Assembly: GCA_003343805.1 (NCBI GenBank)
Contig: QAKM01000027.1
Location: 1 to 8,808, forward strand
Direction: 5' to 3'
DNA: 8,808 nt
Source: Bacillota bacterium
Lineage (GTDB): Bacteria > Bacillota > Clostridia > Christensenellales > Borkfalkiaceae
Positions 6,368 through 8,731 of this stretch are shown piece after piece. A program made the position numbers and the translations under genes. Every line of letters begins with the position of its first letter. Positions within the stretch are counted from its first letter, which is position 1. Under the pieces are notes generated by a model. The model saw only the letters and a list, made by a program, of their open reading frames with translations, searched no databases and was not told the origin of the DNA.

Positions 6368-7831
6368 TTATTTTTCTTCGTCTTTGGACGTCTTGGCGGG
6401 CTTTTTCTCATCCGCCTTCGAGGCCTTTTTCCCGTCGTCCTTTTCGTCGTCCTCGTCCGATCTCTTCTTCTTGGGCTTCTTGCCCTCGTCGTCGTCCTCG
6501 TCCTTGGGCTGTTCCTTCTTGAAAACGCGCATCTGTTCGATGCGGTGCTCTGCAACGCGGAGCACTTCGACCTTCACATACTCATCCTCGCATTCGGCCG
6601 TCGTGCCGTCGTCGGGAACTTCGCCCAGCATCTCGCACACATAGCCGCCGAAGGTCTCGTAGTCGTAGTCCTCCTCCTCGTCCTCGGGGAGCTTGATGCC
6701 CATCGCCTCGATCACTTCATCGAAGGGCGCAAGGCCGTTGATCTCCCATTCGTTCTCGCCCACCTGCTTGATCTCGAACTTGGATTCCTCGCCCTTCTCG
6801 TTGAGGTCGCCGACGAGCAGCTCGATCAGATCGTGCAGCGTGATGATGCCGTTGATCCCGCCGTATTCGTCGAGGACGACCGCAAAGTATTCGCGCGTCG
6901 TCTTCATGCGGTAGAAAAGGTCGTCCGCCTGCATGGTCTCGGAGATGAACATGGGATCGACGATCGCCTGTTTTTTGACGTTTTCGGGCGACTTGTCGTC
7001 GAGGCGGAAGTAGATCTTCGTGTTGAGCACGCCCGTCACGTCGTCGATGTCCTTGCCGCAGACGGGATAGAAGGTATGATAGCTCTTCTTGATGGTCTCC
7101 TCCCAGACGGAGGGATCGTCGCGCTCGAAGAGGAAGTCGACGTCTTTGCGGTGCGTGCACACTTCGCCGACGTCGTTCTCCTTGAACTCAAAGATGTTCT
7201 GGATGAACTCGTTCTCCTTCTCGTCGATGGAGCCCTTCTCGCTGCCCGCTTCCGCCATGAGCATGATCTCCTCTTCGGTGACGTCCTCGCCCTGATCTTC
7301 GGGCTTGATGCCAAACAGGCGCAGGATGCCGTTGGAGGACACCGTTAAGAGCCATACGAGGGGAGCAAAGAGCACCGAGACAAAGCGCAGGATGCCCGAG
7401 AGCCCGCACGAGACTTTCTCGGGGTTGCGCATCGCGATGCGCTTGGGCACGAGCTCGCCGAACACGATGGAGAAGTAGGAGAGCACGAGCGTGATGAGAA
7501 TGAGGCAGATGGTCTCGAGCACCTCAAAGCTCATCGCAAGCCCCGCGTTGATGATGGCCTGCGCGAGGGGTTCTGCAAAGTTGTCCGCCGCGAACGCACT
7601 GCCGAGGAGGGATGCGAGCGTGATGGCCACCTGGATGGTGGAGAGGAAGCGCGAGGGGTTTTGCGTGAGGCGGACGATGCGTCTTGCTCTGCGGTTGCCG
7701 TCCTCGGAGAGCTTTTCCATCTTGGTCTTGTTGGCGGAGACGACTGCGATCTCGGCACAGGCGAAGATGGCGTTGAGGGCGATGAGTACGACCTGCAGGA
7801 TAAGGGATATGGCTATGTCGCCGGGATTCAT
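6368..7831 (-). CDS. CNNM/CorC-family (HlyC-like) transporter with CBS pair
   Basis: A 487-residue membrane protein of the CNNM (DUF21)-CBS-CorC/HlyC family, whose characterised members (CorB, CorC, MpfA) move or export Mg2+, probably with Na+. The DUF21 domain (about 1-180) has hydrophobic segments at about 6-31, 66-84, 104-125 and 143-173, with the family motif GELVPK at 125-130. The CBS pair spans about 205-340 and ends with DEYGGINGIITLHD (321-334). The CorC/HlyC cytosolic domain covers about 352-437. A 48-residue tail of Lys, Asp and Glu (440-487) is predicted to be disordered. ATG 7831 fits the family start but has no Shine-Dalgarno. A five-codon ORF (MRNSP) ends in TGA overlapping it. 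The TTG at 7915 would put an implausible soluble extension in front and overlaps the leader terminator. The exact ion cannot be told from sequence. Confidence 0.93.
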   Translation of the reverse strand: MNPGDIAISLILQVVLIALNAIFACAEIAVVSANKTKMEKLSEDGNRRARRIVRLTQNPSRFLSTIQVAITLASLLGSAFAADNFAEPLAQAIINAGLAMSFEVLETICLILITLVLSYFSIVFGELVPKRIAMRNPEKVSCGLSGILRFVSVLFAPLVWLLTVSSNGILRLFGIKPEDQGEDVTEEEIMLMAEAGSEKGSIDEKENEFIQNIFEFKENDVGEVCTHRKDVDFLFERDDPSVWEETIKKSYHTFYPVCGKDIDDVTGVLNTKIYFRLDDKSPENVKKQAIVDPMFISETMQADDLFYRMKTTREYFAVVLDEYGGINGIITLHDLIELLVGDLNEKGEESKFEIKQVGENEWEINGLAPFDEVIEAMGIKLPEDEEEDYDYETFGGYVCEMLGEVPDDGTTAECEDEYVKVEVLRVAEHRIEQMRVFKKEQPKDEDDDEGKKPKKKRSDEDDEKDDGKKASKADEKKPAKTSKDEEK

Positions 7832-7845
7832 GGTGAGTTTCGCAT
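7828..7845 (-). CDS. Possible 5-codon ORF overlapping the transporter start (ATGA)
   Basis: On the minus strand, ATG CGA AAC TCA CCA TGA encodes MRNSP, and its stop overlaps the transporter ATG by the ATGA arrangement typical of translational coupling. It has no recognisable Shine-Dalgarno of its own, but neither does the transporter. A short hairpin GGGC-AAAT-GCCC lies just upstream. It may be coincidence. Confidence 0.25.
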   Translation of the reverse strand: MRNSP

Positions 7846-7913
7846 AAGGGCATTTGCCCGTAGGTGGAAGCGGAAAAGGGGGAATAGATTGCTCTTCCGA
7901 TTTTTTACAACAC

Positions 7914-7956
7914 AAAAAACATAACCCGCTCCCGCTTTACGCAAGGCAAGTTATGT
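7914..7956 (-). terminator. Strong intrinsic terminator inside the transporter leader
   Basis: On the minus strand, left arm ACATAACTTGC (7956-7946) pairs with GCGGGTTATGT (7929-7919). The stem continues with CTTGC (7945-7941) against GCGGG (7935-7931), leaving one bulged A and the loop GTAAA (7940-7936). Six U residues follow at once. The stem is about 16 bp with some G-U pairs. No minus-strand protein gene ends here. It lies between a strong promoter and the transporter start, so it is best read as an attenuator, or as the 3' end of a small RNA of about 120 nt. Confidence 0.8.
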
Positions 7957-8017
7957 TCCGAAAAGGCACTGTGAAGTTCCGCGATCGTCGCGGCACGCTG
8001 CTTTCGCTGCCGTCCAC
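7937..8017 (-). CDS. Possible 26-aa leader peptide ending in the terminator loop
   Basis: A GTG start at 8017 lies 11 nt downstream of a perfect AGGAGG (8034-8029). The ORF encodes MDGSESSVPRRSRNFTVPFR followed by NITCLA and stops at UAA (7939-7937). That UAA is in the 5-nt apical loop (GUAAA) of the intrinsic terminator. A ribosome reaching the stop would cover the terminator's left arm and could prevent termination, so translation of the leader would favour transporter expression. The peptide starts acidic and has two prolines and four arginines. Against it: a GTG start, the SD only a few nt from the predicted 5' end, and no conservation data. The same bases also form the P1-P3 RNA structure. 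This is a hypothesis, not an established gene. Confidence 0.35.
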   Translation of the reverse strand: MDGSESSVPRRSRNFTVPFRNITCLA

Positions 8018-8042
8018 TATGCTTTGTTCCTCCTATAAAGCT

Positions 8043-8071
8043 ATCATATCATGAATGCCCCTGCTTGTCAA
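8043..8071 (-). promoter_or_regulatory. Near-consensus sigma-A promoter for the transporter leader
   Basis: On the minus strand, TTGACA (8071-8066) is followed by a 17-bp spacer (8065-8049) and TATGAT (8048-8043). This is a perfect -35, optimal spacing and 5 of 6 at -10. The expected transcription start is at about 8036-8034, immediately before AGGAGG. The transporter start is about 200 nt further on, leaving a long structured leader. Confidence 0.85.
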
Positions 8072-8599: not shown

Positions 8600-8731
8600 A
8601 TGACGGCATTCGGAAACTTTTTGTATGAACTCCGCAAGGAGAGGGGCATGACACAGCAGGAGCTTGCAGATCAGCTCCACATCACCAATAAGGCGGTGAG
8701 CAAGTGGGAGACGGGGGTATCGCTTAGATAA
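8600..8731 (+). pseudogene. XRE-family HTH regulator, truncated after the DNA-binding domain
   Basis: An ATG with a good RBS (GGGAGG, 9-nt spacing) opens a frame of 43 residues. Residues 6-39 (NFLYELRKERGMTQQELADQ and onward to KAVSKWETG) are a classic Cro/C1-type helix-turn-helix. After WETGVSL the family normally continues with a Pro-Asp segment and the fifth helix, then a C-terminal effector region. Here the sequence diverges to Arg and a TAA at 8729-8731. The promoter, RBS and first four helices are intact, so loss is recent or the short protein is still made. The break coincides with an inverted repeat GGTATC (8716-8721) / GATACC (8733-8738). Downstream frames to the window end show no HTH continuation. 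It is most likely a remnant; a functional mini-regulator is less likely. Confidence 0.75.

Follow-up and report, generated by a model that had tools for sequence, protein, structure and literature searches.

A leader open reading frame overlapped by an intrinsic terminator as a candidate Mg2+-responsive attenuator of a CNNM/CorC transporter gene in Clostridia

Introduction

In the stretch of clostridial DNA analyzed here (8,808 nucleotides of contig QAKM01000027.1, hereafter the window), a gene coding for a probable Mg2+ exporter of the CNNM/CorC family is preceded by a promoter, a Shine-Dalgarno (SD) sequence and a short open reading frame (ORF) overlapped by an intrinsic terminator. This layout is conserved, and acid-rich leader ORFs reaching a terminator are found before CNNM genes class-wide. 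With a probability of about 0.6, the region is read as a leader-ORF attenuator in which translation would abort at low Mg2+, the terminator then keeping the gene OFF, and would run to completion at high Mg2+, giving read-through.

Nascent-chain sensing of Mg2+ through leaders has so far been described for the enterobacterial MgtL, CorL and MgtQ, which serve importers. According to excerpts of the respective studies, ribosomes are lost at acidic and proline codons (EPDP) of MgtL when Mg2+ is low (PMC11282234), the Asp2 and Glu5 codons of MgtQ abort translation (PMC8092293), and efficient translation of MgtL or CorL represses importers in E. coli and Salmonella (PMC11552253). On the side of Mg2+ excess, Salmonella CorC is described, in the available part of its study, as protecting against excess Mg2+ and as rising in expression at high Mg2+ (PMC12421838). 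If the proposed reading is true, a sensor of the MgtL kind is widespread in Clostridia, tied to Mg2+ efflux, with an inverted sign and an intrinsic terminator, and reaches at least one further transporter family; how Clostridia set Mg2+ efflux becomes directly testable, and the leaders form a natural panel of candidate ribosome-destabilizing peptides outside E. coli.

Organization of the Leader and of the Downstream Gene

All elements of the leader lie on the minus strand. The promoter consists of a -35 box, TTGACA (8071-8066), invariant in 14/14 aligned sequences, and an extended -10 box, TATGAT (8048-8043), whose first two and last bases are, like the TG ahead of it, invariant in 14/14; the two boxes are separated by a 17-nt spacer and match the consensus at 11 of 12 positions. 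The promoter scan, covering 2.8 kb, found five promoter-like sites; shuffled sequences gave a mean of 1.2. Downstream, AGGAGG (8034-8029) is the SD sequence of a 26-codon leader ORF that extends from a GTG at 8017, 11 nt further on, to a TAA at 7937 and codes for the peptide MDGSESSVPRRSRNFTVPFRNITCLA. The intrinsic terminator (7958-7914) is composed of a hairpin (7958-7917; -22.4 kcal/mol for the hairpin alone) and a T6 run (7919-7914), and its 5' arm starts 59 nt after the leader start codon. The terminator pattern scan did not list this hairpin, probably owing to a bulge in its stem; the fold shows it. Because the TAA falls in the terminator loop, a ribosome completing the leader ORF would occupy the terminator 5' arm. 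The predicted fold of the leader RNA reaches -45.2 kcal/mol (z -3.1), equaled in 1 of 200 shuffles. The preliminary description of this DNA had reported the promoter, the AGGAGG and a stable six-U terminator on the transporter strand, all of which are confirmed, the T-run lying 82 nt before the CNNM ATG (7831); the leader ORF with its overlapping terminator, the long-range pairing discussed below and the SD-less CNNM ATG are additions to it.

An A6 tract (7906-7901, minus strand), invariant in the 14 aligned sequences, is complementary to the terminator U6. The segment U6-GUGUUGU-A6 (7919-7901) is nearly invariant in the clade, and base pairing between its A6 and the U-run is conceivable once RNA polymerase has read through. 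Upstream of the promoter, the minus strand bears mutually overlapping ORFs of 65-90 aa. On the plus strand, an ATG-led frame at 8600-8731 starts like a helix-turn-helix regulator and stops after 43 codons, which by eye gives it the look of a broken gene.

The downstream gene (6368..7831, minus strand) is devoid of an SD sequence of its own and codes for a membrane protein of 487 aa with CNNM (PF01595, 180.7 bits), CBS (PF00571, 28.2 bits) and CorC_HlyC (PF03471, 60.9 bits) domains, all above cut-off. Its best relatives of solved structure are 7m1u and 7m1t, along with the CorC efflux protein 4hg0. Assigned by family membership alone, the protein is probably a Mg2+ exporter. An N-terminal extension of the protein from a TTG at 7915 was ruled out, the frame being broken at locus L004.

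Conservation in the Clade of the Window

A search with the CNNM protein gave 18 loci, of which 13 (73-96% identity) have the same leader; Candidatus Gallimonas gallistercoris, with a CNNM identity of 96%, is the sole named species among the 13. Locus L055 (genome G448), whose CNNM protein is 72% identical, also has it, such that the leader is present at 14/14 close orthologues besides the window. The window and the 14/14 orthologues compared share AGGAGG, a 6-nt interval, GCATAGTGGA and the terminator. This layout is kept even though the sequence further upstream differs between the orthologous loci; hence the terminator belongs to the CNNM gene, as had been supposed at the outset. The same conservation bears out the earlier view of an attenuator-type leader ahead of the CNNM/CorC gene and, taken with the lack of any Rfam match, makes it likely that expression is set by read-through.

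The sequence itself is confined to a narrow clade. Among 391 genomes of the class, the exact leader DNA occurs only in G005, the Gallimonas genome; with 3 mismatches allowed, 4 of 121 family genomes match: G005 and G448, both real cases, together with G457 and G499. What is widespread is the architecture, and since the exact-DNA motif is restricted to the clade, the architecture around CNNM genes was examined instead. Aligned by eye, the window peptide MDGSESSVPRRS corresponds to MDDSPSSVPR (L008-L010), MDGSPSGAPS (L012) and MDDHQSSIPR (L055) and, in sister loci at 61-64% CNNM identity, to MDADGSSKP/RP (L057-L059), where the leader stop codon immediately abuts the terminator, and MEEDRSSGA (L056, L060, L061).

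Within the clade, variable columns of the leader ORF number 5, 6 and 4 at codon positions 1, 2 and 3, and pairwise codon differences amount to 28 synonymous versus 60 non-synonymous, a pattern of variation that is not decisive for coding; RNA constraints such as the helix P1 described below could explain the conservation. In the RNAalifold alignment, 9 pairs show two-sided changes, distributed as 3 in the terminator, 3 in hairpin P2 and 2 in hairpin P3, with only 1 in the 5' part of the leader. The layout is conserved before orthologues, and the terminator, P2 and P3 covary; the 5' domain barely does. In agreement with the preliminary description, the RNA was matched to no class: Rfam gave no match in the window or at 18 leader loci at the gathering threshold, and the leaders of 7 loci had no match at E values up to 1. 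Its further suggestion of a new class of folded RNA in the 5' part is not sustained, since a single pair among the 9 changed on both sides lies in the helices there, and an MgtL-like leader ORF fits better. A new riboswitch class was rejected as a candidate on the basis of the Rfam nulls over the leaders scanned and of the scant covariation of the 5' domain.

Acid-Rich Leader ORFs Before CNNM Genes

A set of 208 CNNM loci was assembled, to which one search contributed its best-scoring matches only, and which leaves out L018 (Gemmatimonadetes), duplicate loci, the weak matches L044 and L045 and a few contig-end or second copies. Three loci with <250 nt upstream were dropped, leaving 205 usable. 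Leaders were called without regard to amino acids, by a rule based on hairpin energy, SD sequence, start codon, distances and an ORF that reaches at least to 15 nt from the hairpin. A terminator was detected at 102 of the 205 loci and none was found at the other 103; at 72 of the 205, the blind rule returned a leader ORF with its terminator.

The 40 non-redundant CNNM leader peptides contain a mean of 2.43 acidic residues (D/E) in residues 2-12, compared with 0.87 in 212 non-redundant control leaders called by the same rule (Mann-Whitney U, p 3e-11); the remaining two frames of the CNNM leader DNA give about 0.55. The control leaders were drawn before 676 terminator-like sites located in flanks, on both strands, at loci up to L113, some of them inside genes. 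An acidic residue occupies position 2 in 47% of CNNM leaders and 8% of controls, and is accompanied by a second one in 19/40 versus 11/212. An earlier, narrower scan, which missed hairpins with 1-2 nt ahead of the T-run, had given 2.68 versus 0.88 acidic residues. Examples include MDDSPLPERNITIN (L224), MDDSPLPERSKNYL (L155), MDDNPGSKTGN (L111), MEDGPDETRSK (L222), MDSDDSDTNGNK (L174), MSDDDSDSSNLINLI (L179), MDGDSSEDDNANSFSPP (L031) and MIPEDPADGDRTTPPEP (L014), as well as starts such as MDDSPLPER and MDSDDSD; several of the 72 leaders are clearly off-motif (L071, L082, L129, L153, L181). With D2, E5 and P9, the window peptide has 2 acidic residues in positions 2-12, where the strongest leaders have 5, and is a weak, modest example of the class.

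At the codon level, 12 MDDSP leaders vary between GAC and GAT, between AGC, TCG and TCA, and between CCT, CCA, CCC and CCG. Summed over pairs, codons 2-8 of four MDDSPLP leaders differ by 17 synonymous and 3 non-synonymous changes; other groups of related leaders, too close or mixed, gave synonymous to non-synonymous ratios of 0:2, 2:0, 0:1 and 7:8, the out-of-register pair L121/L135 being excluded. CGA makes up 24/48 of the leader Arg codons versus 21/481 in the bodies of the corresponding CNNM genes, related loci being counted repeatedly. Leaders with CGA are those of L056, L060, L108, L126, L135, L155, L218, L222 and others, several within CGAAGT, which may mark an RNA motif or a slowly translated codon.

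Some CNNM genes depart from this scheme. No leader was chosen by the scan at L067, L069, L075 (where the upstream region was too short to scan), L078, L081, L230, L231 and L233, and the CNNM proteins at these loci start with MDPEPQPDGN, MDPEPGPDGS, MDTDQPPPD or MEADQPPPD. Such acid/proline starts (e.g., L067, L230) are possibly built-in ribosome-destabilizing starts, or else an effect of an N-out topology, which acidic N-termini of CNNM proteins can also serve. The idea that CNNM proteins with a leader go without an acidic N-terminus and leaderless ones have it was refuted by L124, L139, L155 and L188, which combine a leader with an acidic N-terminus. At L062 and L063, the CNNM gene is preceded by a different terminator-bearing leader (AAGGGAGUAG...), ion-riboswitch-like by eye; the L062 leader has no Rfam match at the gathering score. 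A literature search of open PMC papers listed, among its matches, none on leaders before CNNM or MgtE genes in Clostridia.

ORF-Terminator Geometry and Proposed Mechanism

Leader stop codons fall shortly before the terminator arm, within the arm or loop, or past the hairpin. ORFs with the motif end at most 12 nt from the 5' arm or beyond it in 44/48 cases, versus 36/84 for other SD-preceded ORFs (p 8e-9); this comparison set no condition on the ORF end and is descriptive, since the motif pattern was written after viewing the leaders, and some loci are counted twice. The blind test is the acid-enrichment comparison of 40 versus 212 leaders. At L004, L006 and L007, the stop codon ends 7 nt before the terminator arm, and a ribosome there would therefore only touch the hairpin. 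Pairing of the 5' arm with upstream sequence has a mean probability of 0.38 and exceeds 0.5 at 17 of 62 loci; in the window, 9 of the 18 nt of the arm are so paired in the minimum free energy (MFE) structure, with a mean probability of 0.36. These values point to no consistent antiterminator that would reverse the sign of control, and the simplest reading of this layout is that the terminator would be broken by translation itself.

Under low Mg2+, the acid- and proline-containing nascent peptide would destabilize the ribosome, which would likely abort in the first codons of a translated leader ORF, leave the terminator intact and keep the probable exporter gene OFF. Under high Mg2+, taken as the signal, the ribosome would reach the terminator 5' arm, RNA polymerase would pass and the gene would be ON, with export of Mg2+ by the CNNM protein as the presumed outcome. 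The sign is opposite to that of MgtL and CorL, which fits because the gene controlled codes for a probable exporter rather than an importer. The sensor is more likely the peptide than an RNA fold.

A Predicted Long-Range Helix and Possible Sharing of the Shine-Dalgarno Sequence

In the window's clade, the leader also contains a predicted long-range helix, P1, found by RNAalifold and present in the MFE of the window itself. On the minus strand, its 5' strand GCATA-GTGGA (8013..8022; pairing sequence GCAUAGUGGA) spans the leader start codon, and its 3' strand is split into TCCAC (7864..7868), the partner of GTGGA, and TATGC (7842..7846), the partner of GCATA, located 10 nt before the CNNM ATG. 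Hairpin P3 (GGGC...GCCC, 7848..7860), with two pairs showing two-sided changes, lies between the two halves, and hairpin P2 (CGGAAG...TTTCCG, 7871..7899), with three such pairs, lies on the same strand. The ten pairs of P1 are intact in 14 aligned sequences, except for one pair in one sequence, and P1 is without covariation because its pairs hardly vary. An exact complement is found in 13/15 clade members. Shuffling reproduces this particular match 108 times in 20000 trials and some decamer match of this type 185 times in 2000.

The spacing of these elements is tightly kept: AGGAGG lies 6 nt from GCATA in 15/15 clade members, and YATGC lies 8-13 nt from the CNNM ATG, the distance being 10 nt in 11/15. 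None of the 15 clade members has an SD-like match of at least 4 nt before the CNNM start, compared with 174 of the 190 other loci, at which the CNNM starts were partly picked by SD. In the read-through RNA, P1 would hide the leader GUG and bring the only AGGAGG near the SD-less CNNM AUG. Judging from this arrangement, the leader AGGAGG may also serve the CNNM gene through P1 in the window's clade. A parallel is offered by genes of phage T4 in which a hairpin separates the SD sequence from the start codon.

Leaders of Other Mg2+ Transport Genes

MgtE was intended as the control family; it has leaders of its own, and TrkH was therefore added as a control. The terminator-based rule returned leaders at 13/30 MgtE loci, with a mean of 1.4 acidic residues, below that of CNNM leaders, and some of them off-motif. 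ORFs upstream of MgtE genes start with MDYDPLPILN, MDSDPLPGKY, MDTVPLPCF, MDAYPGR or MDAGSSSGTIPDRRR, and those upstream of CorA genes with MDTDPYPNRS, MDIDPYPNYS or MDADPKRTN; MDDPNNRCVM precedes the CorA gene of L309, from the Candidatus Gallimonas genome itself. CorA genes are preceded by leaders of the form MD[ITA]DP.. or MDDPNNRC at L304, L306, L308, L309, L313 and L314, those of L313 and L314 being one residue apart in the stretch printed. Leaders of the form MDA[YH]PGR stand ahead of the MgtE genes of L241, L248 and L249.

In the upstream ORF with the strongest SD, the motif is present in 24/72 cases for CNNM, 7/19 for MgtE, 4/15 for CorA and 0/12 for TrkH (p 0.012, 0.019 and 0.078 for the first three versus TrkH), and acidity exceeds that of TrkH with p values of 0.001, 0.011 and 0.10, respectively. 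A looser D/E-P pattern, written after viewing the leaders and hence giving descriptive counts, was found on the sense and antisense strands at 37 and 7 of 205 CNNM loci, 10 and 0 of 30 MgtE loci, 6 and 0 of 30 CorA loci, and 4 and 3 of 28 TrkH loci. SD-preceded starts are rarer on the antisense strand (sense:antisense 375:213 for CNNM, 95:35 for MgtE, 78:17 for CorA and 62:38 for TrkH), and CorA is therefore hardly above TrkH per start. These counts support the presence of acid/proline leaders before MgtE genes and are suggestive of them before CorA genes.

At L248 and L249, the MgtE leader ORF covers GGGCGGUC, which by eye is able to pair with GACCGCC; the GACC can alternatively pair with a GGUC around the SD sequence, and a U-run is present. 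This layout, resting on by-eye pairing, would suit a gene that is ON at low Mg2+. One could go further and imagine a clostridial Mg2+ regulon built on one peptide sensor, combined in the window's clade with an SD hand-off by a long-range helix, a joint reading that is tentative, somewhat more doubtful than even and made slightly less likely by the comparison per SD-preceded start. MgtL-like acid/proline leaders would then precede both exporters (CNNM) and importers (MgtE, CorA), the sign of control being set only by the placement of the ORF over hairpins. Failure of ribosomes at low Mg2+ would shut the exporter, whose terminator stays intact, and would open the importers via alternative hairpins, and in the window's clade one SD sequence would serve the leader and then, once the terminator is passed, the transporter start. 

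Alternative Explanations

An attenuator based on a leader peptide could likewise be switched ON by translation and yet respond to a signal other than Mg2+, such as slowing at CGA or proline codons, ABC-F/EF-P status or a ribosome-targeting drug. The share of CGA among leader Arg codons (24/48 versus 21/481 in CNNM bodies) points in this direction, as does the report, in excerpts of PMC11282234, that EttA relieves acidic and proline motifs; several leaders are nonetheless without CGA in the stretch printed, and similar leaders stand before MgtE and perhaps CorA genes while the motif is seen in 0/12 TrkH ORFs, albeit in small numbers, so that another signal is considered unlikely. A constitutive partial terminator or an ordinary short RNA, with no conditional control, would also place a terminator between promoter and gene, since such terminators can simply reduce expression; this accords poorly with an acid enrichment and an ORF-terminator overlap that exceed controls across the class, and it is the least probable of the explanations weighed here.

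Two further explanations give P1 the main role. A riboswitch that P1 closes and that binds a metal or a metabolite, the short ORF being incidental, would account for the retention of the ten pairs across 14 aligned sequences, with a single pair broken in one of them, for the presence of P1 in the window MFE and for the covariation of the terminator, P2 and P3. It is nevertheless improbable given that no Rfam match was obtained over the leaders scanned, that the 5' domain covaries little and that the sister loci L057-L059 retain the ORF and terminator, by eye without P1-like pairing. Alternatively, the 5' block would only share its SD sequence with the CNNM gene through P1, the leader ORF being untranslated or non-regulatory. 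The clade's CNNM starts without SD-like match (0/15, against 174/190 at partly SD-chosen starts elsewhere) and the constant distances (6 nt from AGGAGG to P1 in 15/15, 10 nt from P1 to AUG in 11/15) are in line with this; such sharing, however, leaves the terminator unexplained, and beyond the clade the leader ORF is present although the CNNM genes there have their own SD, making it decidedly improbable as the whole explanation. 

Comparison With Known Systems

In Bacillota, M-box and yybP-ykoY riboswitches place Mg2+ or Mn2+ transport genes under terminator control; they differ from the window leader, which has no Rfam match. Nor does the window ORF contain the run of codons for a regulated amino acid that is a trait of trp-type attenuators, and the gene downstream of the leader codes for a cation transporter. 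For another trait of these attenuators, a mutually exclusive antiterminator that a stalled ribosome would favor, the upstream pairing of the terminator 5' arm gives mean probabilities above 0.5 at 17 of 62 loci and of 0.36 in the window.

The closer parallels are enterobacterial. CorL, before corA in E. coli and Salmonella, shares with the window an upstream ORF whose translation depends on Mg2+ and is coupled to termination ahead of a gene for Mg2+ transport, and differs in being Rho-dependent, in having a single proline and in that efficient translation represses (from the available part of PMC11552253). MgtQ, before mgtB in Salmonella, has Asp2 and Glu5, which D2 and E5 of the window peptide match in position; as described in excerpts of PMC8092293, it differs by its 8 codons, its intergenic location, its target, which is the ribosome-binding site of mgtB rather than a terminator, and the rise in expression upon abortion. 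CorC/YbeX offers a likeness in sign, this Mg2+ efflux protein having an N-terminal ribosome-destabilizing sequence and being predicted to rise at high Mg2+, when translation is completed (excerpts of PMC12421838). There, the sequence belongs to the protein's own N-terminus, with neither leader nor terminator, and the protein lacks the CNNM membrane domain and is located in the cytoplasm. YoaL, according to the same excerpts of PMC12421838, is a leader peptide ahead of mgpA (yoaE), a CorC-domain Mg2+ tolerance gene, and its translation raises MgpA, an effect proposed to act at high Mg2+; it overlaps the mgpA upstream region and affects mgpA translation, with no terminator mentioned in these excerpts, and is likened here by description, not sequence.

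MgtL, before mgtA in E. coli and Salmonella, has like the window early acidic/proline codons in a short ORF between the promoter and a Mg2+ transport gene, and its translation is Mg2+-sensitive according to excerpts of PMC11282234 and PMC11552253. It differs by Rho-dependent termination (none detected in E. coli according to the available part of PMC11552253) and by alternative RNA structures, where the window has an intrinsic terminator overlapped by the ORF and no consistent antiterminator. The outcome also differs, as ribosome drop-off on MgtL turns an importer ON, whereas drop-off on the window leader would turn a probable exporter OFF. As a sensor, the window leader would by analogy function in the manner of MgtL, yet it is not classed as an MgtL leader.
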